Positions 13,778 through 31,425 of a DNA stretch of 35,868 nucleotides are shown here, piece after piece (within the stretch, counting starts at the first letter, position 1; each line of letters starts with the position of its first letter). The position numbers and the translations under genes were made by a program. Below the pieces are notes generated by a model that saw only the letters and a program-made list of their open reading frames with translations, ran no database searches and was not told the DNA's origin. This DNA comes from an uncultured Pelagibacteraceae bacterium (GTDB lineage Bacteria > Pseudomonadota > Alphaproteobacteria > Pelagibacterales > Pelagibacteraceae): assembly GCA_902525625.1 (NCBI GenBank), contig CABZHM010000013.1, positions 1 through 35,868 of the forward strand, given 5' to 3'.

Positions 13778-15502
13778 TTACCTGTTAGAAAGCCAAATTG
13801 TTTGACAGGGATCCAGTTTAATTTTTTTATCAGGTGTAAAAAATATTTTACTTCCTAGTAAGTCTTTATAATTTAAAAACTTTTTACTTAACTTGAAATA
13901 TTGCATTTTCGAGGAGAGATTTGTTAAGCAGATTATTGTTTGCTTTTTATCAATACTTTTTCTTTTAAAAGAAAATATTTTTGGTCCAAGATTGATATTT
14001 TCTCTATCCGCGTTTGGGTGAAATGCTTTTTGTTTTTTTTTGATACTTAATAAATTTGAAATCTTTTTATAAAAATAATTCTCTTTAGAATCTTTATTAT
14101 TAAGTTTGTTTGAAATATTTTTCAAATTCCATTTATATCTATTAACGTCTCGATTATTTCCAGTGATCACAAATTTTGCCTCATCATTAGATGTTCCAAA
14201 CATGGAGTTGAAATAAATCGCTGGGACTCCTTCGAATGCTATCATTATCGAATGAGCGGAAATATATCTTTCAAATGCAAACTTACCATCATCATAATTA
14301 GTTTTTTTTAAAGCATCAAATATAGTTATATTTGCCTCATAAACCTTTTTTGATTTATTATGAATTTTTCTATAAGAAAACTTTGATCCATTTTTCTTTA
14401 ATCTGTTAAGAAATTCTTTTAAGACTTTGTTACTTAATATTCCTTCAGTGGGTCTCATTCCAATTCCATCATGGGATGCAATGAAATTTAAATAACAATT
14501 TCCATTTTTACTTTTTGGAAGTTTTTTACTCCAACTGTAGAGATAGGAGTTATTTTCAAATAAGAAAGCGTGGATTAATAAAGGTGGCAAGGAAAAATTA
14601 TATATCCAGTTAGCTTCATCATTTTTACCAAAATAACTTAAATTTTCTTTTTCAGGCAAGTTTGTTTCTGTAACTATTAAGGTTTGAGTATTAAGTAAGT
14701 CAGAAATGATTCTTAGGAGCTTTATGATTTCATGTGTTTTGTTCAAGTTAATACACTTCGTTCCACTTTCTTTCCAAATATAAGCAATTGCATCTAATCT
14801 AAAAATAGTTACTCCATGATTAATTAGGTTAATCATGATTTTTATAAAGCGTAATAACACTGCTGGGTTTTTAAAATTTAAGTCTAATTGATCTGGACTG
14901 AATGTTCGCCAAAGATAGTCAGTTTTATTAAAGATACCTATTTTTTTTAAAAGTTTATGATCTCTTGGCCTTACAACTTTTGACGTATTAAATTTAGAAT
15001 CTACAGTTAAAAAATAATCTTTACCAGGTTTTTTTGACTTTAAAAAATTTTTAAACCACAAACCTCTCGCCGATGAATGATTAATGACAATATCTGCCAT
15101 CACATCACTTTTTTTTGAAAAACTTTTTATATCCGACCAATTGCCGAGCTTACCATCTATTTTGTAATGATCTTTTACTGCAAAGCCACTATCACTACTT
15201 GAAGGATAAAATGGTAAAAAGTGAACAGTGTTAAAATTTTTACTTAATTTTTTTTGAAAGAAGTTTTCAAATACTTTAATTGAATGTTTTTGATTTTGGG
15301 CAAAAATGCTATCGCCATAGCATATAAGCATTGAAGTTTTTTCAGATATATTCTTTGTCTTTTTTTTATTTTTTTGGTTGAATTGTTTTAAAAGCTGTAT
15401 GACTTCAGTACTATAAAAATTAATATCCTTTTTCTTGCAATGAGCTTGATATATATTATTAATTTTAGAGTAAATCTGTCTTTGGTTTATTTTGGATAAC
15501 AT
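13778..15502 (-). CDS. GH13_18-type glycoside phosphorylase (probable glucosylglycerate phosphorylase, or sucrose phosphorylase)
   Basis: A 574-aa alpha-amylase-superfamily enzyme of the sucrose phosphorylase group. Catalytic residues can be placed: nucleophile D237 in FRLDAIAYIW, acid/base E279 in VTETNLP and transition-state stabiliser D345 in IASHDGIG. The early CYGDSI and LPFYPSSSDSGF motifs are typical of GH13_18. These enzymes split or form a glycosidic bond with phosphate. Because the next two genes upstream make a glycosyl-3-phosphoglycerate and dephosphorylate it, the likely substrate is glucosylglycerate, giving glucose-1-phosphate and glycerate. Sucrose phosphorylase remains possible. 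It overlaps the glycosyltransferase stop by one base (TAATG). Confidence 0.88.
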   Translation of the reverse strand: MLSKINQRQIYSKINNIYQAHCKKKDINFYSTEVIQLLKQFNQKNKKKTKNISEKTSMLICYGDSIFAQNQKHSIKVFENFFQKKLSKNFNTVHFLPFYPSSSDSGFAVKDHYKIDGKLGNWSDIKSFSKKSDVMADIVINHSSARGLWFKNFLKSKKPGKDYFLTVDSKFNTSKVVRPRDHKLLKKIGIFNKTDYLWRTFSPDQLDLNFKNPAVLLRFIKIMINLINHGVTIFRLDAIAYIWKESGTKCINLNKTHEIIKLLRIISDLLNTQTLIVTETNLPEKENLSYFGKNDEANWIYNFSLPPLLIHAFLFENNSYLYSWSKKLPKSKNGNCYLNFIASHDGIGMRPTEGILSNKVLKEFLNRLKKNGSKFSYRKIHNKSKKVYEANITIFDALKKTNYDDGKFAFERYISAHSIMIAFEGVPAIYFNSMFGTSNDEAKFVITGNNRDVNRYKWNLKNISNKLNNKDSKENYFYKKISNLLSIKKKQKAFHPNADRENINLGPKIFSFKRKSIDKKQTIICLTNLSSKMQYFKLSKKFLNYKDLLGSKIFFTPDKKIKLDPCQTIWLSNR

Positions 15503-16722
15503 TAACTATATTTTTTGTTATCCTCATTAACAACTCTTTCTAGCCTTCCTAAAAAATCAGGTATTGCACTTTTTACTCTACTCCACGTAGGTATAAAAGG
15601 TGTATCCATTGGATTAAGAATAAATGCTTCTCCAGCCTTCATTATATTTACAGCAAATAATTCAACAGCTTTTTCTTCTGTATGAGAGTCAAATTTTAAT
15701 CCATTCATGTATGCATCACTTCGATAAATATCAATTAAATCTAAAGCAGATCTATAATAAGTTGCTTTTAGAGATCTAAATTTTTCTCTACTAAATGTAT
15801 TTCCTTGAGTAGCTAATTTTTTAATAAATGTTTTTATTATATCAATTGACATTCTAGATAAACCTTTGGTTTCATCGTCGCTAGATAAAATTTGATGTTT
15901 ATGATCATAAGTATCAGCTAAATCGACCTGACAAATATTTTGCGGTGAAAAACTTCTTTGCATTTCAGATAAAATACCGACTTCAATACCCCAATCAGAA
16001 GATATCCTTAATTCTGGTAAAACATTCCGTCTAAAAGAGAACTCACCAGCCAAAGGATACTTAAAAGACTTCATAAACTCTAAATAGCTACTAGCACCAA
16101 TAGTCTTTTCGAGAGCAGTTAGTAAAGGAAAAACAAGTAATCTTGCAACTCGGCCATTCATTTTTCCGTTAGCAACTCTTGGGTAATATCCTTTACAAAA
16201 TTCAAAGTTAAAAAGAGGGTTTACAACTGGATAAAAAAGTTTAGCTAACATTCTCCTATCATAGGTTTTTATATCGCAATCATGTAAGGCAACAGAACGC
16301 GCAGTATCTCTTGCAATAGACATACCAATACAATACCAAACATTTCTTCCCTTACCGAGTTCACTTGGTGAAAGATCTTTTTTCTTTAATTCTTTATCAA
16401 GTTTTTTTAGTCCAGGTCCATCGTTCCACAAAAGAGAAAAGGGTGCCTTTAGTTTTTTGAAAAACTTCCAAGCTTTTTTTGCTTGATTTTCGTTAGCTTT
16501 ATCAAGACCAACTATAATATGATCTAAATATTTTGTTTTACTAATTTCCTCTACAATATTAGGTAAAGCGTTACCCTCTAGCTCTGAATAAAGACAGGGT
16601 AAAATCAACTCCATTTTTCTTTCTTTAGAAAATTTTAATAAATCTTTTTCAATTTCTGTGGTGGATCTTGTCCCAAAATCATGCAAAGTCGAGATTATTC
16701 CATTTTGAGAAAATTCACTCAT
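15502..16722 (-). CDS. Glucosyl-3-phosphoglycerate synthase-like glycosyltransferase (GpgS type)
   Basis: A 406-aa GT-A glycosyltransferase. The start STLHDFGTR followed by LILPCLYSELEG, the metal-binding HDCDI (the D-x-D equivalent, about residues 172-176) and the acceptor-side GYYPRVANGKMNGRVARL fit the GpgS/MpgS-like group that joins an NDP-sugar to 3-phosphoglycerate. The product is then hydrolysed by the HAD phosphatase encoded just upstream. The outcome is a small anionic compatible solute containing no nitrogen. Whether glucose or mannose is transferred cannot be proven from the sequence. Glucose is favoured by the phosphorylase downstream. Confidence 0.85.
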   Translation of the reverse strand: MSEFSQNGIISTLHDFGTRSTTEIEKDLLKFSKERKMELILPCLYSELEGNALPNIVEEISKTKYLDHIIVGLDKANENQAKKAWKFFKKLKAPFSLLWNDGPGLKKLDKELKKKDLSPSELGKGRNVWYCIGMSIARDTARSVALHDCDIKTYDRRMLAKLFYPVVNPLFNFEFCKGYYPRVANGKMNGRVARLLVFPLLTALEKTIGASSYLEFMKSFKYPLAGEFSFRRNVLPELRISSDWGIEVGILSEMQRSFSPQNICQVDLADTYDHKHQILSSDDETKGLSRMSIDIIKTFIKKLATQGNTFSREKFRSLKATYYRSALDLIDIYRSDAYMNGLKFDSHTEEKAVELFAVNIMKAGEAFILNPMDTPFIPTWSRVKSAIPDFLGRLERVVNEDNKKYS

Positions 16723-16731
16723 AATTTAAGT

Positions 16732-17538
16732 TTAGACATTATGATTTAATTTAGCTAGAGCCATTTTAATCACATCAGCCCAGCCTTCCGGAGATGGTTT
16801 ATTTGAAAATTCAAGGTTATTAATATTAATTTGATCAAGTTTAAACTGATCGTTAAAAACTAAGCAAGGAATATCGCTATTTCTTAGCATATCTAGATCA
16901 TTATAGTTATCGCCAACTGCAATAGTTTTAATCTTATCTTCAGTTTTTTTTAAAATTTTTATGACTTTATTCATAGATTTTACTTTATTAACCTTATCAC
17001 ATAAGTTTGAGACACGTCCACCATCTTGTAAAGTTAAAGAATTATCGTTTAAAATTTTTAATAGTTTATTTTTTTCTGTTTTTTTTCCAATGAATAAAAG
17101 TGGCAAAGTGTAATTTCTACTTAAAACATTTTTGAGTTTGTCATCCTTTTGCCCAAATATTTCCTCTTGTTTTTTTTTAACTAATTTGGAAATTAAAATA
17201 CATTTATTTTTTATTTTTTCAGGAACTTTTAAATTAAAGATTTTCAGCAATTCTTCTTTTTCTCTACTAAGAATTATTTTGTTTGGAAAATTTTTATTTA
17301 TTAAATTTAAACCATGAATTGATGAACCATTTTCTGAAATGTAAGGAAGCTCAACACCCAATTCCTCGTTAAATTTTTCAATTTCTTTTTCAGTTTTGCT
17401 TGAATTTGGAATAATAATAATCCCATTATTCACAAGTTTTCTAATATAAAGTTTGATGGGGTCGAATTTAAAAGTATCTCTATGTAAAAGTGAACCATCT
17501 AAGTCGGTAAAAATCAAAATCGTAATTTTTTTTTTCAT
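16732..17538 (-). CDS. HAD-IIB phosphatase, glucosyl/mannosyl-3-phosphoglycerate phosphatase family
   Basis: A 268-aa HAD hydrolase. Motif I is FTDLDGSLL near residues 10-18 (nucleophile and acid Asp). Motif II is PNSSKTEKE, an IIB cap with SENGSSIHG follows, and motif IV is VGDNYNDLDML (about residues 218-228). This subgroup removes phosphate from mannosyl- or glucosyl-3-phosphoglycerate and resembles YedP. It is first in the three-gene minus-strand operon, followed after 9 bp by the matching synthase. The first codons are very A-rich. Confidence 0.85.
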   Translation of the reverse strand: MKKKITILIFTDLDGSLLHRDTFKFDPIKLYIRKLVNNGIIIIPNSSKTEKEIEKFNEELGVELPYISENGSSIHGLNLINKNFPNKIILSREKEELLKIFNLKVPEKIKNKCILISKLVKKKQEEIFGQKDDKLKNVLSRNYTLPLLFIGKKTEKNKLLKILNDNSLTLQDGGRVSNLCDKVNKVKSMNKVIKILKKTEDKIKTIAVGDNYNDLDMLRNSDIPCLVFNDQFKLDQININNLEFSNKPSPEGWADVIKMALAKLNHNV

Positions 17539-17734: not shown

Positions 17735-19474
17735 ATGATTTCTAAATCAATTATTAATTTTTCTGAATATTTTGTTTTAAACTATAAAAACTCCCCAGTT
17801 GATTCAAATTTGATGGAGGATTTTGTAAATAATGATTATTTTAAAAACTTGTTGATAAATTTAACTGAAATAGATCCTTATGATTTTAAGATATCAGATG
17901 AATTTTTTAGATTGAACGCTATTTCTTTATTGCCTCATTTAAGAATACTAAAAACTTCTTTAAATTTGACGACTGAAAGGTTTCTTCTAGAGCTTTCATT
18001 TCTTGTGCAACCTTTTAATAAGCATTTATCAAGTGAATTAAAAATTCTATCTTCAAAAATTAATAATTCTGAGTTTGGAAATGCCAAATTAATATCAAAT
18101 TTACTAACCAGCTCAAAAAGTTTATTTTATAAAAAACTGATTTTAGATTACGAGAAAAAAAATCCTTTAGCTTTATATCCAACCTCGAGTTACAGAAATT
18201 CGTGTGGTCATGTTGTAAGTTCAAACGACTATCAACAGATAGAAGCAACTATGAACCTAAATACTTTCACGTCAATTAAAGTAGAGGAAAATACATTAGA
18301 TATAAATAATTCTCTTTTGAGAGATCAATACAAATCGTTTGGAAGGTGTGTTTGTTTATTAGATCAAAATATTGAGGATAATTATGGACTAGAAATTGAA
18401 AATTATTTCAATCATCATTCAATTGTCTTAGAAAAACTCGTTTATAGAGCTATGGAGGTTGATAAGCATATAAAAAATGTTGAGAAGATAGTAGAGGATT
18501 TTAGAAAACTTGGCGTGAACAGAAATGAACCCATCTTAATAATTGGAGGGGGAGTTATAGGGGATATTGGAGCTTTTGCAGCATCTATTTATCATCGAAG
18601 CACTCCATATATAATGTTGTCAACTTCTGTTGTAAGTGCGATAGATAGTGGACCAAGTCCAAGATCATGTTGTGATGCGGGAGGATTTAAAAACCTTCTA
18701 GGTTCTTTCCATGCTCCAGTTCTTAATATATCTGATAGATCATTCTTTAAAAGTTTAAAAACTTCATGGGTCCGTCATGGTATTGCTGAAATACACAAAA
18801 TGGCAGCAATTAGAGATAAAGAATTATTTAATTTACTTGAGGATACAGGACTTGATTTAATGAAAACACATTTTGGTACAATTAATTGTAATTCCCAAGA
18901 TGAAATAGTTAAAAAATCAAAAAAGATAATTGGTTTATCTTTAAAAAGTTACGTCGAGAGTGAATATGATAATTTACACGAGGTTCACAGTATTAGAGAT
19001 CATGCTTTTGGCCACGGATTAAGTGCAAACTTTGAACTTAAAGCAGGATTATTACATGGTCATGCCATAAGTGTTGAAATGACCTTAAGTTCTTTTATGT
19101 CTTACAAAAGAGGCTGGTTAAGTGAAAAGGATTTGCATAGAATTTTAAAGTTATTTAGCGAATATGAATTGAGTTTATGGCATGACATATTGTTAGATGA
19201 GAAATGCATGAATGAAGGTTTTGATAAAATTCTTCAAAAAAGAGGTGGTAACTTAGCTATCCCAGTTCCAATTGCTATCGGAAAGTGTAAATATATTAAT
19301 GATCTAACCAAGTCTGAATTAAGAGAAATTATTCAAGAATATAAAATAATAGTTTCAAAATACCCCAGAAAAGGATTGGGTGTCGAACCTCTTTGTTCAG
19401 ATGCAGGACTTGAAGATCCGGTTACTGTTTTTAAAGCAGATGAAAATATTGCAAAAGAAGCAAATTTAAATTAA
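17735..19474 (+). CDS. Sugar-phosphate cyclase of the dehydroquinate synthase superfamily (EEVS-like), with extra N-terminal region
   Basis: A 579-aa protein. Residues about 180-480 form a 3-dehydroquinate synthase-like fold: NAD-binding GGGVIGDIGAFAAS (271-284), IDSG (303-306), FKNLLGSFHAP (318-328), and metal ligands E352 (GIAEIHK), H423 (RDHAFGH) and H441 (LHGHA). KN-LG and LHGHA resemble 2-epi-5-epi-valiolone or desmethyl-4-deoxygadusol synthases more than AroB. The usual K-T-G-V-N stretch is replaced by PRSCCDAGG, with R310 in place of Lys and two Cys. An N-terminal stretch of about 170 residues is not found in classical members. Substrate is unknown; a C7 or C6 sugar phosphate turned into a cyclitol or keto-cyclitol is the family expectation. 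A glycosyltransferase-like gene follows after 4 bp. Confidence 0.82.
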   Translation: MISKSIINFSEYFVLNYKNSPVDSNLMEDFVNNDYFKNLLINLTEIDPYDFKISDEFFRLNAISLLPHLRILKTSLNLTTERFLLELSFLVQPFNKHLSSELKILSSKINNSEFGNAKLISNLLTSSKSLFYKKLILDYEKKNPLALYPTSSYRNSCGHVVSSNDYQQIEATMNLNTFTSIKVEENTLDINNSLLRDQYKSFGRCVCLLDQNIEDNYGLEIENYFNHHSIVLEKLVYRAMEVDKHIKNVEKIVEDFRKLGVNRNEPILIIGGGVIGDIGAFAASIYHRSTPYIMLSTSVVSAIDSGPSPRSCCDAGGFKNLLGSFHAPVLNISDRSFFKSLKTSWVRHGIAEIHKMAAIRDKELFNLLEDTGLDLMKTHFGTINCNSQDEIVKKSKKIIGLSLKSYVESEYDNLHEVHSIRDHAFGHGLSANFELKAGLLHGHAISVEMTLSSFMSYKRGWLSEKDLHRILKLFSEYELSLWHDILLDEKCMNEGFDKILQKRGGNLAIPVPIAIGKCKYINDLTKSELREIIQEYKIIVSKYPRKGLGVEPLCSDAGLEDPVTVFKADENIAKEANLN

Positions 19475-19478
19475 TAAA

Positions 19479-20450
19479 ATGCACCAATTTGTAATTCCAA
19501 TTCACCATGTGAATTGGAGTACAAGATCAGTCCTCGAGGGAATTTCTCAAAAATATAAACCAAAACAAATTTTTGTTGTAACGTCGGATCAAGAAATTAA
19601 AATTTTAAAGGAAAAATCTAAGTTCTGGAATATTAAAAATTTAAATTTGTTGAATGAGGATAACTTTTTTTTAGATAAATATAATTTAACAAAAACTGAT
19701 ATCGTTTCACAGATAACTCAAAATAAACCTAATTATTCTCCTGGATGGTTGTACCAACAAATTATTAAATTAGGGGCTAATGATGTTATTGATGAATTAG
19801 AAGATGTTTTTGTAGTATGGGATTCTGATTTACTACCAGTTAGATCTTGGCCAATACTTGATGAAAAAAAAGAAAAATTTGCTTTGTTACAAGATAAATC
19901 ATATGGAAACCAAGATGTTTTAAATTCATGGAAAAATTTAATAATTAATGTATTAGAAATAAACCCTGTCGAAGATATTAGAGGGACATTTACATCACAT
20001 CATATGATTTTTAAAACAAAGTATTTAAAAAGTCTCAAATCAAAATTTAAAGATCACTTCAAATCTGATCAAAATTGGATTAATTTAATAATAAAAGCCA
20101 CAAATATATATGGTTCTTTTGGAGAATATTGGACATATGCTAGTTGGGTAAATCATATAAATAAAAGTGATCTAAATTATTATCCTTATGAAAAATATGG
20201 TTTAACCACTGAAAGATTTTATGATGATGGTAATGGTTTATTTTCAAGAAATTTTAAGAAATTTAGTAATTTTGACGAACAAGAGGACTTTTATCCGTCT
20301 TATTCGTCTATAATAAATTTTATAGATAAAAATTATCAGCAACCTCCGTCCTCTTTATCATTTGAAACGAATATCAGGCACACAAAGAAAAAAGATGAGA
20401 ATATTCACCTTGAGGAAAAAAGATCTATTTGGAGAGAAAAAAGCTTATGA
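19479..20450 (+). CDS. DUF6492-like putative glycosyltransferase
   Basis: A 323-aa soluble protein. The layout is that of a GT-A nucleotide-sugar transferase: a first strand with FVIPIHHVNW, an internal SPGWLYQQIIKLGA (about residues 87-100), an acidic metal motif VVWDSDLLPVR (D115, D117), THHMIF-like SHHMIFK, and FGEYWTYASWV (about 209-220). These fit DUF6492, a group of glycosyltransferase-like proteins. It starts 4 bp after the cyclase, so the two probably act in one pathway, perhaps joining the cyclitol to a sugar. The family call is from memory of motifs. Donor and acceptor are unknown. Confidence 0.6.
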   Translation: MHQFVIPIHHVNWSTRSVLEGISQKYKPKQIFVVTSDQEIKILKEKSKFWNIKNLNLLNEDNFFLDKYNLTKTDIVSQITQNKPNYSPGWLYQQIIKLGANDVIDELEDVFVVWDSDLLPVRSWPILDEKKEKFALLQDKSYGNQDVLNSWKNLIINVLEINPVEDIRGTFTSHHMIFKTKYLKSLKSKFKDHFKSDQNWINLIIKATNIYGSFGEYWTYASWVNHINKSDLNYYPYEKYGLTTERFYDDGNGLFSRNFKKFSNFDEQEDFYPSYSSIINFIDKNYQQPPSSLSFETNIRHTKKKDENIHLEEKRSIWREKSL

Positions 20451-20494: not shown

Positions 20495-20680
20495 ATGAAA
20501 ATATTAAAAGAATTAGATGATGCAAAATTGGTTATTGTTGATTTAGAGGTAAAGTTAGGGGACAAGTTTAGAAGTGCTCCTACTTTATGTGCAAAGTATA
20601 AAGGAAAAATTATACCACTTAATACCGCTCATGACGGAAGACCAATATTAATGAAGGAAGAAAATTCAATAGAAAACTAA
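20495..20680 (+). CDS. Small 61-aa protein of the cyclase cassette, unknown function
   Basis: Not recognised. It is a 61-aa soluble protein with mixed charge, no membrane segment and a single Cys (in TLCAKYKGK). The predicted pattern is helix, strand (KLVIVDLEV), then a loop with FRSAPTLCAKYKGKIIPL. It has a strong Shine-Dalgarno and lies 44 bp after the glycosyltransferase on the same strand. That spacing is longer than the other gaps in the cassette but shows no clear promoter. It could be a subunit, carrier or regulator for the pathway. The strong ribosome site and clean frame argue that it is real. Confidence 0.6.
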   Translation: MKILKELDDAKLVIVDLEVKLGDKFRSAPTLCAKYKGKIIPLNTAHDGRPILMKEENSIEN

Positions 20681-21267: not shown

Positions 21268-23385
21268 GTGAAAAGTATTTATAAAATTCATTATATTGTA
21301 TTTTTTTTAGCTTTATTTTTTTCTAAAGCTATAGCGGAGCCAACCTTTGTGCAAAGTAAATTAATTGATGACGAATTTTATTTAGGACTTAACTTTAATA
21401 ATGATGGTACAAAAATGTATACTGTATCAGCTACGGGAACATCAGATGCAGTTATCGAACATATATTAACTACCCCATATGACATTTCAACGGCGACCGT
21501 AAATAATACTAAAATAGTATTTAGAAGTAATAGTAGTACACAAGCAACACAAGTAGTGTTCAATAACGATGGAACAAAAATGTTTATTGTTAACCATGCT
21601 GGTAGAAAGAAAGTAGATTACTACTCACTAAGCACTGCATTTGATGTTTCAACTGCTACATTTGATGGCGAATATTCTATCTCTGGTCAAGAACAAAGAG
21701 CAAATTCAATTGCATTTAATAATGATGGTACCAGAATGTTTATTGCTGGTGTAGGAAATGATTCACAAGTGCGTATTCATGAATATTCACTAAGCACAGG
21801 ATTTGATCTTAGCTCCACAGTTACTCATCTTAATACTGAAGACCTAATTTCTTTTCAAAGTCACATAGATGGAGTTACTTTTAATTACGATGGTACTAAA
21901 ATGTATACCATTACAACAATGAGTGAAGCACAAGATTTGATGTATCAGTTTAAATTAACTACACCTTATGATGTTTCTACTTTATCACTTGAAGGCACCT
22001 ATACTGTAAGTTCTGTTAGTGTAAGTTCAAGAGAAGTTGTGTTTAGTAATGATGGAAGTAAAATGTTTATCATTGATGATGATCCCGATGATCTTGTTAA
22101 TAATAAAGTTCATGAATTTAACCTAAGTTGTAATTGGAGCATAATCGATGGTGCTTGTGATGATCCAATAACTACTTCCGATGGGGGTAAAGATATTTTA
22201 AGCTCAATCGAGTCTCAAACTGCAACAGCAAAACAAATTGCTATTCAAGCAAGTACTCCAGTTCTTAACCGTATGTATTGGTTAAGAAGACATAGAAATA
22301 ATGATCAATTAAGTGATCAAAATATTAGATTAAATTTTTCAAATTCAATGATGGCATCGCTTTCTAACATTATTCCTATATCAAATAAAACAAATGAAGT
22401 TCTAGACAAATTATCAGATGATTGGTCATTTTGGAGTGAGGGTAGTGTAAGTATTGGTAGAACTGGAGATACATCTACTTCATCATCTAAAAAAATTAAT
22501 ACCAAGGGCATTACACTTGGCATGGATAAAAAGATAAGCAAAAATAGATTATATGGTTATGCTCTTAGATTTGGTAATGATGATGTTGATGTCGGCACAT
22601 CTGGGACTAATTTAGATACTGAGTCTTTTAGTTTATCAGTTTATGGGACTTTTCCTCATGATGATGAAAAATTTACTGAAGGCATCATTGGAGTGAGCAC
22701 TTTAAAGACTGATCATGTTAGGAAAGGGGGAGGTAGCACTAGAACAGGAGAAAGAGATGGTGCACAAATATTTGGTTCACTTAACTACTTAACAACATAT
22801 AAAAAAGAAGATTTTAATATTACTCCTAATTTAAGAATTGATTTAAGCTATACAGAATTGTCTAAATATAGAGAAAAAGGCCCTGCAGCTTTAGTTTACA
22901 AAACTCAAACAATTGAAACTGGAATGATATCTGCTGGTTTTACAATAAGTGATATTTTAGATTATAATTCTTTCACGTTCAAACCAAATGGTGGATTAGA
23001 GCTTGGAGTAGATTTTAGTCCGTCTTCAGATGCAACATATCGTTACCTATCGGAAACTACGGAATATACAAAATCTATCGGTCAAGACTCAAAAAATTTA
23101 AGAGCAAATATTGGATTTGATTTAGTAACCGATAATGGTTTTTCTATAATGACTATTTATGAAAGAAATCAAAGTGACAATGCTCATAGCGATACTTTAT
23201 ATTTAGGATTTGGTTATATACCAACAGACAATATTAAATATGCTATGACTTTAGATAATGACAAAGCATCTTTGAGTTATAAGAGAGATTTAAATGGTTT
23301 CGATATCAGAATGAGTTCGAATTATAGCTTGATGAGTCAAATACCTGAATATGGTGCAACCCTAGAAATTGTAAATACATTTTAG
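21268..23385 (+). CDS. Autotransporter with five-repeat propeller-like passenger
   Basis: A 705-aa secreted protein. A signal peptide covers residues 1-23 (cleavage after KAIA). Residues about 24-295 hold five copies of a 45-50-residue repeat with the core F-N-x-DGTKM-(Y/F) and the closing STP/A-(Y/F)-D-(V/I)-ST. This resembles beta-propeller-type repeats common in marine bacterial and phage proteins. A linker helix region (SIESQTATAKQIAIQ) follows. Residues about 385-705 look like a 12-strand autotransporter barrel (DDWSFWSEGSVSIGR start, alternating strands, final Phe). It should reach the outer membrane through Sec and BAM and expose the repeats. The start is GTG; the nearby ATG at 21258 is out of frame and stops quickly. 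Confidence 0.85.
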   Translation: MKSIYKIHYIVFFLALFFSKAIAEPTFVQSKLIDDEFYLGLNFNNDGTKMYTVSATGTSDAVIEHILTTPYDISTATVNNTKIVFRSNSSTQATQVVFNNDGTKMFIVNHAGRKKVDYYSLSTAFDVSTATFDGEYSISGQEQRANSIAFNNDGTRMFIAGVGNDSQVRIHEYSLSTGFDLSSTVTHLNTEDLISFQSHIDGVTFNYDGTKMYTITTMSEAQDLMYQFKLTTPYDVSTLSLEGTYTVSSVSVSSREVVFSNDGSKMFIIDDDPDDLVNNKVHEFNLSCNWSIIDGACDDPITTSDGGKDILSSIESQTATAKQIAIQASTPVLNRMYWLRRHRNNDQLSDQNIRLNFSNSMMASLSNIIPISNKTNEVLDKLSDDWSFWSEGSVSIGRTGDTSTSSSKKINTKGITLGMDKKISKNRLYGYALRFGNDDVDVGTSGTNLDTESFSLSVYGTFPHDDEKFTEGIIGVSTLKTDHVRKGGGSTRTGERDGAQIFGSLNYLTTYKKEDFNITPNLRIDLSYTELSKYREKGPAALVYKTQTIETGMISAGFTISDILDYNSFTFKPNGGLELGVDFSPSSDATYRYLSETTEYTKSIGQDSKNLRANIGFDLVTDNGFSIMTIYERNQSDNAHSDTLYLGFGYIPTDNIKYAMTLDNDKASLSYKRDLNGFDIRMSSNYSLMSQIPEYGATLEIVNTF

Positions 23386-27987: not shown

Positions 27988-28106
27988 GAGATAAAATAAA
28001 AAAAATTTACTTATTCATCTTGTTCAATTATAAATATTGGCATAAACACTCATGAAAATAACTCATGCCCTCGTGGTGAAATTGGTAGACACAAAGGACT
28101 TAAAAT
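27988..28106 (+). repeat. Right copy of 119-bp direct repeat (attR-like), includes promoter and 5' half of tRNA-Leu
   Basis: Partner of 23447-23565. It covers the 79 bp upstream of tRNA-Leu and the first 40 bp of the gene, and then continues into the native 3' half. The upstream part must contain whatever drives tRNA-Leu and nadK. TTGTTC and TAAACA, 17 bp apart (about 28020-28048), could be the promoter. Confidence 0.88.
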
Positions 28107-28152
28107 CCTTGCCGCTTGCGGAGTGCCAGTTCGAGTCTGGCCGAGGGCACCA
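28067..28152 (+). tRNA. tRNA-Leu(UAA)
   Basis: 86 nt with encoded CCA. Acceptor stem GCCCTCG / CGAGGGC, anticodon stem AAGGA / TCCTT with loop CTTAAAA (anticodon TAA), a long variable arm (class II, GCCGCTTGCGG) and T arm GCCAG-TTCGAGT-CTGGC. It reads the UUA leucine codon, very common in this A+T-rich genome. The anticodon loop is the breakpoint of the flanking repeat. Confidence 0.96.
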
Positions 28153-28158
28153 TTTAGG

Positions 28159-28929
28159 ATGAGTAAAATAAAGATTATTTCAGATAAAAATCATGATTCT
28201 ATAAGAATTAAAAAGTTACTTTCAAAAATTATACAAAATAGCAAATTAAGAAAATCTAATATCTCAATAGTTATAGGTGGAGATGGTTTTATGCTACAAA
28301 CTTTGAAAAAAAACCAAAATTCTAAAAAAATTTTTTATGGCATTAATTCAGGAAATTATGGTTTCTTAATGAATAAGTTTTCATCAAAAAATATTATAAA
28401 GAATTTGTCAAAAGCAAAGATGATTTCTATTTCACCTATAGAAATGACAGTAACCAACAGTAGTAATTTAAAAAAAAAGCATATTGCTATTAATGAAGTT
28501 TCAATTTTAAGACAAAGTAGACAAGCAGCATCACTATCAATATCTCAGGGTGCTAAATCAATCATCAAAAGATTAGTTTCTGATGGAGTGTTAGTATCTA
28601 CGCCAGCAGGTAGCACAGCTTATAATCTTTCAGTTCATGGACCAATTTTAAACCTTAATTCAAAAAAGTTATCTATTTCTCCTATTAGTCCTTTTAGACC
28701 CAGAAGATGGAAAGGGAAAATTATAAATGATAATTCAAAAATCATTATAAAAAATCTTAATTCAAAAAAAAGACCTGTAAGTGCAGTCGCTGATAATATA
28801 GAGGTGAGAAACGCTAAGAGTATAATAATAAAAACTAATAAAAAAATTAAGTTTAATCTTTTATATGACCAAAATAATAGCCTCCAAAAAAAAATTAAAA
28901 TTGAACAATTAAGACGGGAAACTTATTGA
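28159..28929 (+). CDS. nadK: NAD kinase
   Basis: A 256-aa enzyme that phosphorylates NAD to NADP with ATP. Seen are the GGDG motif (IVIGGDGFMLQTL, about residues 43-55), NEVSILRQ with substrate-binding Asn-Glu, and the Gly-rich region VLVSTPAGSTAYNLSVHGP. The frame is open back into the tRNA gene to 28123, but the ATG at 28159 gives the proper N-terminus (MSKIKIISDK) and clears the tRNA. The start lies only 6 bases after the tRNA-Leu CCA, so nadK is probably transcribed with the tRNA and released by processing. Confidence 0.94.
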   Translation: MSKIKIISDKNHDSIRIKKLLSKIIQNSKLRKSNISIVIGGDGFMLQTLKKNQNSKKIFYGINSGNYGFLMNKFSSKNIIKNLSKAKMISISPIEMTVTNSSNLKKKHIAINEVSILRQSRQAASLSISQGAKSIIKRLVSDGVLVSTPAGSTAYNLSVHGPILNLNSKKLSISPISPFRPRRWKGKIINDNSKIIIKNLNSKKRPVSAVADNIEVRNAKSIIIKTNKKIKFNLLYDQNNSLQKKIKIEQLRRETY

Positions 28930-29005
28930 TGGTGCCCCCGCACGGACTCGAACCGCGGACCTATTGATTACAAATCAATTGCTCTACCAGCTGAGCTACA
29001 AGGGC
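28930..29005 (-). tRNA. tRNA-Thr(UGU)
   Basis: 76 nt with encoded CCA on the minus strand. Acceptor 5' GCCCTTG pairs with 3' CGGGGGC (two G-U pairs). Anticodon loop TTTGTAA gives anticodon TGT, and the T loop is TTCGAGT. It is convergent with nadK, with no spacer beyond the nadK stop codon. Confidence 0.95.
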
Positions 29006-29034
29006 ATGGGCAATAGTTATTAATAATTCTTAAT

Positions 29035-29781
29035 TTAATCAACTCTTTTTTTTATGTAATTTAAATAATGGAATACAATAGCAGCACTATTTGAGATATT
29101 TAGACTTTCCACTTTGTTATCAATACCTATCTTTACTAAAAAATCTGCATATTTTGATGTGTGTTGGTGCATTCCAAATCCCTCCGAGCCAAATAAAAGA
29201 ACAATATTCCCTTTCCAATCTATTTTTGTAAAATCTTTATTAGCGTCCCCATCAAAACCATAAACCCAAAAATTTTTATCTTTAAGATTTTTTAAAGTAG
29301 AATTAATATTAGATACTTCAAAAATATTCATATACTCAATAGCCCCGCTCGAAGCTTTGTACATAAGTTTACTTTCACGTGGATAATGTCTTTCTTTAAT
29401 TATAATCCCATCAATGTTAAAAGAAGTTGCGCTTCTAATTAAAGCTCCTATATTTCTGGGGTCAGTTACCTCATCTAAACAAACTAAAGTAATATTTTCT
29501 TTTTTTTTTATGAATTCTTTAAGTATTGGCTTTTCTAAGTGCTCTATTTCAGCAACATACCCTTGATGCAGTAAATTTTCTCTAGTGCTATACTTGTCTA
29601 ATTCTTTTTTGGTCTTAAAATAAATCTTAACTTTATCCAAAAGATTTTTGTTTGGATTTTTTCTATGAATATTTTTTTTACTTTCCTCTGTTAAAAAAAC
29701 TTTTAGCACCTTTCTTTTTGGGTTTTTTAGAGCCTCTACTACTGCATGTTGTCCCACAATAAAAAATGATGATTTACTCAT
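29035..29781 (-). CDS. rlmB: 23S rRNA 2'-O-ribose methyltransferase, RlmB type (SpoU/TrmH)
   Basis: A 248-aa SPOUT methyltransferase with an N-terminal substrate-binding domain (SFFIVGQHAVVEALKNPKR) and a C-terminal knot. Motif 1 is LDEVTDPRNIGALIRSA, motif 2 VLLFGSEGFGMHQ and motif 3 VESLNISNSAAIVFHY. RlmB methylates G2251 in the 23S rRNA P loop. The open frame runs on to 29892, but those 37 extra codons are basic and hydrophobic with no family match. The ATG at 29781 gives the usual N-terminus. Another TrmH-family target cannot be excluded. Confidence 0.9.
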   Translation of the reverse strand: MSKSSFFIVGQHAVVEALKNPKRKVLKVFLTEESKKNIHRKNPNKNLLDKVKIYFKTKKELDKYSTRENLLHQGYVAEIEHLEKPILKEFIKKKENITLVCLDEVTDPRNIGALIRSATSFNIDGIIIKERHYPRESKLMYKASSGAIEYMNIFEVSNINSTLKNLKDKNFWVYGFDGDANKDFTKIDWKGNIVLLFGSEGFGMHQHTSKYADFLVKIGIDNKVESLNISNSAAIVFHYLNYIKKRVD

Positions 29782-29910
29782 AAATATCTCATATTTTACA
29801 CGTTTTTTTCGATATTTTCTCATTAAATCACGTGTTGCATTTGCATAAATAAAATATATAAAACGCATGTTGTTTAAAGCTTTATTGAACATGAGGACAC
29901 TCCCCCTAAG

Positions 29911-29996
29911 GGAGGGGTTCCAGAGCGGTCAAATGGGGCGGGCTGTAAACCCGTTGACTTCGGTCTTCGAAAGTTCGAATCTTTCCCCCTCCACCA
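29911..29996 (+). tRNA. tRNA-Tyr(GUA)
   Basis: 86 nt with encoded CCA. Acceptor GGAGGGG / CCCCTCC, anticodon in CTGTAAA (GTA), long variable arm of class II, T loop TTCGAAT. It is followed by tRNA-Gly and tuf, a widespread bacterial order. Confidence 0.96.
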
Positions 29997-30042
29997 TTCA
30001 ATGAAATTTTTGACAATACTGGAGTGTTATTCTTGGGTTTGT

Positions 30043-30116
30043 GCGGGTGTAGTTCAATGGTAGAACGCTAGCCTTCCAAGCTGGATGTAAGGGTTCGATT
30101 CCCTTTACCCGCTCCA
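30043..30116 (+). tRNA. tRNA-Gly(UCC)
   Basis: 74 nt with encoded CCA. Acceptor GCGGGTG / TACCCGC, anticodon loop CTTCCAA (TCC), T loop TTCGATT. It lies 33 bp before the tuf start, probably in one transcript with tRNA-Tyr and tuf. A TTGACA at 30010-30015 precedes it, but no good -10 follows at the right distance. Confidence 0.96.
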
Positions 30117-30149
30117 AGAAATATAAAAATTAAAATTGAGGTAAAAGTA

Positions 30150-31340
30150 ATGTCAAAAGAAAAATTTGTAAGAAATAAACCACATTGTAATATTGGTACT
30201 ATTGGACATGTCGATCACGGTAAAACAACTCTAACAGCAGCTATTACAAAAGTTTTAGCAGAGACTGGTGGAGCAACAGCAATCGCTTACGACCAAATTG
30301 ATAAAGCTCCTGAAGAAAAAGAGAGAGGAATTACTATATCAACTGCACACGTAGAATACGAGACAGAAAAAAGACACTATGCACACGTTGATTGCCCAGG
30401 TCACGCTGACTATGTAAAAAATATGATTACAGGAGCTGCTCAAATGGATGGAGCAATACTTGTTGTAAACGCAGCAGATGGTCCAATGCCACAAACAAGG
30501 GAGCATATTCTTTTAGCAAGACAAGTCGGTGTTCCGGCAATAGTTGTTTATTTAAACAAAGTTGATCAGGTAGATGACAAAGAAATGATAGATTTAGTTG
30601 AGGAAGAAATAAAAGAGCTTCTTACATCCTATAAATTCCCAGGAGACAAAACTCCCATTGCGAAAGGTTCTGCACTTGCAGCTGTTGAAGGTAGAGATGA
30701 AGAAATTGGAAAAAAATCTATTTTGGAATTAATGAAAAATGTTGATGAGTTCATTCCACAACCTGATAGACCGAAAGATAAAGATTTTTTAATGCCTGTT
30801 GAAGATGTATTTTCAATTTCAGGAAGAGGAACAGTTGTTACAGGAAGAGTTGAATCAGGCATAATTAAAACTGGAGATGAAATTGAAATAGTAGGTATAA
30901 GAGAAACTAAAAAGTCAGTTTGTACAGGAGTCGAAATGTTTAGAAAACTTTTAGATTCTGGTGAAGCTGGTGATAATATAGGTGTTCTGCTTAGAGGTGT
31001 TGAGAGAACCGATGTTGAAAGAGGTCAAGTTTTATGTAAGGCTGGCTCAGTAACACCACATACAAAGTTTGAGGCACAAGCATATGTTCTAAAAAAAGAA
31101 GAGGGAGGCAGACATACTCCTTTTTTTACAAAATATAGACCCCAGTTTTATTTTAGAACAACCGATGTAACAGGAGAAGTTGAATTACCTGCAGGTACTG
31201 AAATGGTAATGCCAGGTGATGATGCTAAGTTTACAGTAAAATTAATTACTCCAATCGCAATGTCAGAAAAACTAAACTTTGCTATTCGAGAAGGAGGAAG
31301 AACTGTAGGAGCTGGAGTAGTAACTAAAATTTTAGAGTAA
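30150..31340 (+). CDS. tuf: Translation elongation factor Tu
   Basis: A 396-aa GTPase that delivers aminoacyl-tRNA to the ribosome. G1 GHVDHGKT (residues 19-26), the switch region [15 protein letters not shown]3 DCPGH (about 81-85) and G4 NKVD (about 136-139) are all intact. Domains 2 and 3 follow with [12 protein letters not shown] and [13 protein letters not shown]. The ribosome site GAGGT lies about 8 bp before the ATG. It is placed between tRNA-Gly and tRNA-Trp, the classical tufB context. Confidence 0.99.
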
Positions 31341-31349
31341 ACACTATAT

Positions 31350-31425
31350 AGGAGTGTAGCTCAATTGGTAGAGCGCCGGTCTCCAAAACCGGAGGCTGAG
31401 GGTTCGAGTCCCTCCGCTCCTGCCA
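31350..31425 (+). tRNA. tRNA-Trp(CCA)
   Basis: 76 nt with encoded CCA. Acceptor AGGAGTG / CGCTCCT, anticodon loop TCTCCAAAA region with anticodon CCA, D arm TAGCTCAATTGGTAGAG and T loop TTCGAGT. It sits 9 bp after tuf and 15 bp before secE, so tuf, tRNA-Trp and secE are probably co-transcribed. Confidence 0.96.

Follow-up and report, generated by a model that had tools for sequence, protein, structure and literature searches.

A sugar-phosphate cyclase encoded by an uncultured Pelagibacteraceae (SAR11) bacterium is, as judged from sequence comparisons, a divergent variant of demethyl-4-deoxygadusol synthase (DDGS, or MysA), which makes the core structure of microbial sunscreens, and not a wholly new enzyme class. 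Its gene lies on contig CABZHM010000013.1 (35,868 nucleotides; hereafter the window), designated C13 in a genome of 1.06 Mb, and is followed by a gene for a protein of family DUF6492. In a phylogenetic tree the cyclase joins DDGS, and close relatives with the same N-terminal extension and loop type head complete gene clusters for mycosporine-like amino acids (MAAs).

Placement and active site of the cyclase

The open reading frame (ORF) of the cyclase is intact, with an ATG at 17735. Pfam domains DHQ_synthase (3.2e-21) and DHQS_C (7.7e-14) were detected, and these fold domains together with three metal ligands and an NAD site put the protein in the dehydroquinate synthase/sugar-phosphate cyclase superfamily. 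Its score against the NCBIfam model of AroB, TIGR01357, was 148.4 bits, below the curated cut-off of 305, and a separate AroB is encoded in the same genome. When the PDB was searched with phmmer, the DDGS of Anabaena (5tpr) came first (239 bits, 7.5e-70), followed by ValA (4p53; 157 bits), a 2-epi-5-epi-valiolone synthase (EEVS), and then by AroB. In a maximum-likelihood tree of the catalytic core, which starts near residue 165-185, the long-form cyclases (the long clade) were sister to characterised cyanobacterial DDGS/MysA with support of 100/99, and all EEVS-type and AroB sequences fell outside these two groups. Because it comprised 20 rows with few reference sequences, none of them DOIS, EVS or aminoDHQS, and because the long clade sits on a long stem, the tree shows on which side of the superfamily the long form falls but not in what exact order the groups branch. 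Viral contigs, scanned twice, gave no relative, and phage records gave weak AroB-like matches only.

With the DDGS/MysA enzymes of Anabaena variabilis (5tpr) and Nostoc sp. HK-01 the window cyclase shares 34-35% identity, the core, the metal and NAD residues, Ala at the 268-type site and the LHGH motif. These enzymes differ from it in their length (about 405-410 residues, no N-terminal extension), in their loop IKVAVNHRK with Lys and Asn, in a Thr at the site occupied by Lys in the long clade, and in that mysB and mysC follow their genes. ValA belongs to the same superfamily and probably uses the same substrate, but is 29% identical to the cyclase, has the Asp and His fingerprint, LHGE and a KTG loop, and lacks the extension. 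AroB shares the fold and the metal and NAD residues, whereas its identity is 23%, it has a KTG loop, Asn, and Glu instead of His443, and it lies outside the group of sedoheptulose 7-phosphate cyclases in the tree.

Among the sequences compared, Ala424 and His443 are common to the cyclase and DDGS only: the 268-type site is neither Asp nor Asn, and position 443 is Glu in all EEVS-type and AroB sequences. The second fingerprint site, which following Kean et al. 2014 and the alignment we take to be the 347-type site, reads Lys502 in the cyclase and in all members of the long clade instead of the Thr of DDGS. With Ala424 and Lys502, the Asp and His of the EEVS fingerprint are both absent. Arg310 occupies the position of a Lys in AroB, DDGS and EEVS and is followed in the loop by Cys312-Cys313-Asp314; the Lys was found in every compared sequence outside the long clade. 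K319-N320-L-L-G and K355 are intact. As the characterised DDGS 5tpr itself reads K-V-A-V-N and has no K-T-G, a missing KTG alone cannot separate the cyclase from DDGS. On the alignment, the features that do so are Arg for Lys, Cys-Cys-Asp and Lys502, and the long clade is marked by these same residues and a C-terminal tail. In addition, all window-type SAR11 copies read GHGLSA and CCDAGG. The homologues from genomes G412, G601 and G1259 have the loop PRTCCDG(F/H)G, thus CCDG(F/H)G, and share GHTWSP with DDGS.

About 165 N-terminal residues are additional in the alignment with AroB, DDGS and EEVS. No Pfam family was matched by these residues, which are predicted to be mostly helical in a low-confidence model and end in the conserved motif E..NP.(A/S)L(Y/F)PTS.YR.S.G...S. 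The ratio of non-synonymous to synonymous substitution rates (dN/dS) in this part was 0.05-0.22, indicating purifying selection. Since relatives of 577-583 residues retain the region and it is under such selection, it does not result from a mis-called start.

The cyclase gene had 25 further matching loci, all labelled Pelagibacteraceae. In 22 SAR11 orthologues (87-98% identity) the PRSCCDAGG loop was invariant, and dN/dS of the core was about 0.03-0.06, again pointing to purifying selection; loop and extension are therefore not due to chance. One SAR11 copy (L054, 8001-9722) contains a single internal stop codon, which reflects either a sequencing error or decay.

An earlier reading made from the sequence alone had given the ORF, its coordinates and its residue numbers correctly (R310, C312, C313, KN-LG and LHGHA are all present). 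The metal ligands and NAD site that it described as intact were located at E352, H427, H441 and GGG/D277/D304, and its placement on the EEVS/DDGS side is narrowed to DDGS by the tree, Ala424 and His443. The PRSCCDAGG loop that it singled out does differ from that of characterised DDGS, and the long N-terminal addition proved to be a conserved region, found also in the homologues of G412, G601 and G1259.

Long-form relatives in MAA clusters

Outside SAR11, the nearest relatives, both of the long form, were found in two alphaproteobacterial genomes, G601 and G1259. The complete cyclase of G601 (locus L073) is 47% identical to the window cyclase over 550 residues, N-terminal part included. Its gene is followed by those for an O-methyltransferase (mysB), an ATP-grasp enzyme (mysC), a D-Ala-D-Ala-ligase-like enzyme (mysD) and a HAD hydrolase. 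The mysB, mysC and mysD homologues show 48%, 42% and 40% identity to those of Nostoc sp. HK-01, whose cluster likewise comprises mysABCD, its own cyclase being a short DDGS. Gene order in G1259 is as in G601, the cyclase being split across two contig ends. Judged by their genes, both clusters presumably make MAAs, and the expected product of the cyclases heading them is demethyl-4-deoxygadusol (DDG). Since cyclases with this loop type head complete MAA clusters in both genomes, an Arg/Cys-Cys-Asp loop is what this MysA variant normally carries. The long-form MysA proteins resemble the window cyclase in the N-terminal region, the Arg-x-Cys-Cys-Asp loop, Lys502 and the C-terminal tail; they differ in their mysABCD-HAD setting and in retaining GHTWSP and CCDGFG. 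DUF6492 was looked for in G601 and not found.

The sequence-only reading had taken the combination of loop and extension as a possible sign of a new class with an unknown cyclitol as its product. This suggestion is not upheld, as the cyclase joins DDGS in the tree and its extension and loop type recur in cyclases heading mysABCD clusters. What that reading had named as evidence against itself, a tree position firmly inside EEVS or DDGS with the same loop in characterised members, was found in part: the cyclase is sister to DDGS and its loop is common to members of a known pathway, but those members are known from genes alone.

HAD and TauD/TfdA genes have been described as conserved members of the MAA clusters found in Pseudomonadota, Actinomycetota and Bacillota, but not in cyanobacteria (PMC11888242). 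TauD/TfdA-like dioxygenase genes lie near the split cluster of G1259 (L099, 5654-6502; L098, 11459-11998), one of them upstream. Deoxyribodipyrimidine photolyase-related genes occur near the long-form cyclase in two distant genomes, G601 (L073, 6962-8482) and G412 (L072, 2414-3904), and hint at an ultraviolet (UV)-linked role.

The DUF6492 partner and the SAR11 neighbourhood

The cyclase is rare in SAR11. It was present in 5 of the 151 genomes sampled from the genus, and 11 long-form cyclases (one partial) were found among 397 genomes of the order. In each of the 23 loci listed, the cyclase is directly followed by a DUF6492 gene, which is present in the same 5 of 151 genus genomes and in no others and also adjoins the 53%-identical cyclase of G412. 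It is under purifying selection, with dN/dS far below 1. As the surrounding genes vary while the pair stays, cyclase and DUF6492 behave as a two-gene unit. Since G412 pairs DUF6492 with an unchanged active site, acquisition of the partner did not involve the GLSA/CCDAGG substitutions and probably preceded them. The motif WD(S/A)D is invariant in the DUF6492 protein; motifs of this type are typical of GT-A glycosyltransferases, and the protein is probably a GT-A-like glycosyltransferase by this sequence feature. A literature search on DUF6492 returned no paper. Linked mysB and mysC genes were found in G601 and G1259 and not in SAR11. The window genome carries the general SAR11 O-methyltransferase gene (G000:C2:57516-57893, minus strand) with one internal TAG.

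Positions of the cyclase, its partner and their sequence features in the window
Feature	Position	Strand	Basis
Long-form DDGS/MysA-like sugar-phosphate cyclase, 579 residues	17735..19474	+	Pfam, closest PDB chain, tree
N-terminal extension, residues 1-165	17735..18229	+	Homologues in G412, G601, G1259; dN/dS
Substrate loop PRSCCDAGG, residues 309-317	18659..18685	+	Alignment and site table
Metal ligand Glu352	18788..18790	+	Alignment to AroB/DDGS/ValA
Ala424, DDGS-type	19004..19006	+	Asp in EEVS-type, Asn in AroB
Metal ligand His427	19013..19015	+	Site table
Gly428-Leu-Ser-Ala431, SAR11-only replacement of TWSP	19016..19027	+	Alignment, site table
Metal ligand His441 and DDGS-type His443 (LHGH)	19055..19063	+	Site table
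Lys502	19238..19240	+	Thr in DDGS, His in ValA, Lys throughout long clade
C-terminal tail EPLCSDAGLEDPVTVF, long-clade-specific	19385..19432	+	Alignment
DUF6492 protein, 323 residues, 4 bases after cyclase	19479..20450	+	PF20102, 6.1e-12
WDSD motif of DUF6492 protein, DxD-like; WDAD in some copies	19818..19829	+	Invariant as WD(S/A)D

Upstream of the cyclase, a divergent glucosylglycerate-type set (13778-17538, minus strand) encodes a GpgP-like phosphatase, a GpgS-like synthase and a sucrose-phosphorylase-like enzyme and probably serves a compatible solute; the GpgS-like synthase scored 356 bits against NF040724 (cut-off 700). The three genes stand beside the pair in most SAR11 loci and are missing in others. 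A required role of GpgS/GpgP in the cyclase pathway was rejected, as they are missing beside the pair in L050, L051, L055 and L074. Between GpgP and the cyclase, some SAR11 loci contain a sugar-type ATP-binding cassette transporter set (L048, 2878-7873; L053, 838-4658) with a binding protein and two permeases, and in L048 also an ATPase. After DUF6492 follows a 61-residue ORF (20495-20680, plus strand), which not all loci share: it recurs in L038, L041, L046 and L052 (92-98% identity) and lies on the opposite strand in L038. Further downstream, and in part of the loci, lies a gene for a protein with an autotransporter beta-domain and an N-terminal part resembling a beta-propeller (21268-23385, plus strand). 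Five tRNAs lie within 28067-31422; one match (28067-28149, plus strand) overlaps the listed GTG start of an ORF at 28123, which probably starts later.

Proposed function and alternatives

DDG-type chemistry is the probable, if by no means certain, activity of the SAR11 cyclase. DDGS is reported to make desmethyl-4-deoxygadusol from sedoheptulose 7-phosphate through dephosphorylation, aldol condensation, enolisation, dehydration, reduction and tautomerisation (PMC4426668). The same course is most likely in the SAR11 enzyme because its catalytic residues are intact. By homology, its cofactors would be NAD+ and a divalent metal, the latter bound by E352, H427 and H441. Sedoheptulose 7-phosphate would then undergo oxidation, phosphate elimination, reduction and ring closure by aldol addition, and the ring-closed intermediate would yield DDG or a close analogue upon dehydration and tautomerisation. 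Arg310 most likely replaces the usual Lys in substrate contact, and the N-terminal region probably has a role in folding or assembly, possibly shaping the active-site entrance. In SAR11 the product would be diverted from the mysB-mysC-mysD route, and the adjoining DUF6492 enzyme would most likely glycosylate it to a UV-absorbing, antioxidant or osmoprotective solute. A dedicated glycosyltransferase, MysG1, glycosylates MAAs in Nostoc (PMC11378024), which makes a sugar-bearing gadusol derivative plausible; by this analogy we propose such a compound for SAR11, where it may be a protective substance not described before. Homology, active-site residues, tree position, the clusters of the relatives, the pairing with DUF6492, the lack of mysC and purifying selection are observed; substrate, product, glycosylation and physiological role are what we infer for this lineage. 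A bolder version, in which a lineage within SAR11 uses cyclase and DUF6492 glycosyltransferase to make a glycosylated sunscreen or solute that is new to science, be it gadusol-like or another cyclitol, the altered active site giving a non-DDG product, is tentative and rather unlikely.

Several points weigh against DDG-type chemistry followed by glycosylation. Arg310, Cys312/313, Asp314 and Lys502 lie at or beside substrate-contacting positions; with these altered residues and the SAR11 change from TWSP to GLSA, a product other than DDG is conceivable. The long clade has a stem of 1.33 changes per site, and no report of an assayed long-form cyclase was found. A mysC homologue was absent from all 13 SAR11 carriers tested, and the O-methyltransferase matched in carriers is encoded by a short gene common to SAR11 in general, present in 40 of 51 genus genomes and in all 8 of high quality. 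The glycosyltransferase assignment has a short motif as its basis, together with a weak model (alpha/beta start, mean predicted local distance difference test (pLDDT) score 43.7), and a PDB profile search with DUF6492 returned nothing credible. The cyclase model (pLDDT 43.6) was too poor for inspection of the loop. Both models are weak because their alignments held near-identical SAR11 sequences only.

The SAR11-only active-site substitutions could also mean that the SAR11 enzymes form a separate class of DDGS/MysA ancestry, in which the GLSA and CCDAGG enzyme now makes a different cyclitol modified by DUF6492. They are confined to SAR11 and invariant in 23 copies, they coincide with a different gene partner in place of mysB-mysC-mysD, and the SAR11 enzymes have a branch of their own in the core tree (length 0.46). 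However, G412 pairs DUF6492 yet keeps TWSP and CCDGHG, so that the partner changed without the substitutions, and Ala424 and His443 are still DDGS-like; we regard a separate class as unlikely. Much less probable is an EEVS-type enzyme converting sedoheptulose 7-phosphate into 2-epi-5-epi-valiolone for a pseudo-sugar pathway. ValA was the second-best PDB match and a glycosyltransferase-like partner would suit a pseudo-sugar, but the cyclase has Ala424, Lys502 and LHGH where EEVS-type enzymes have Asp, His and LHGE, EEVS-type sequences lie outside in the tree, and close relatives of the cyclase head MAA clusters. That an inactivated or non-catalytic cyclase is kept for another role is hardly credible: a near-universal Lys is lost at 310 and the loop is altered, but metal ligands, NAD site, K319-N320 and K355 are intact, purifying selection is strong, and the same Lys-to-Arg change occurs in members heading complete MAA clusters.

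For the DDGS/MysA family, the long Arg/Cys/Cys clade breaks the fingerprint by which DDGS and EEVS are told apart, a point of importance when genomes are mined for MAA clusters. SAR11 is among the most abundant marine bacterial groups, and no earlier report of a sunscreen-core cyclase in it was found. A literature search for SAR11 or Pelagibacter with mycosporine yielded, by titles and abstracts, no paper linking SAR11 with MAA synthesis, and the two-gene arrangement of cyclase and DUF6492 in SAR11 is undescribed so far. Should the product of the pair prove to be a DDG-derived glycoside, UV-absorbing dissolved compounds would come in part from streamlined heterotrophs of the ocean.
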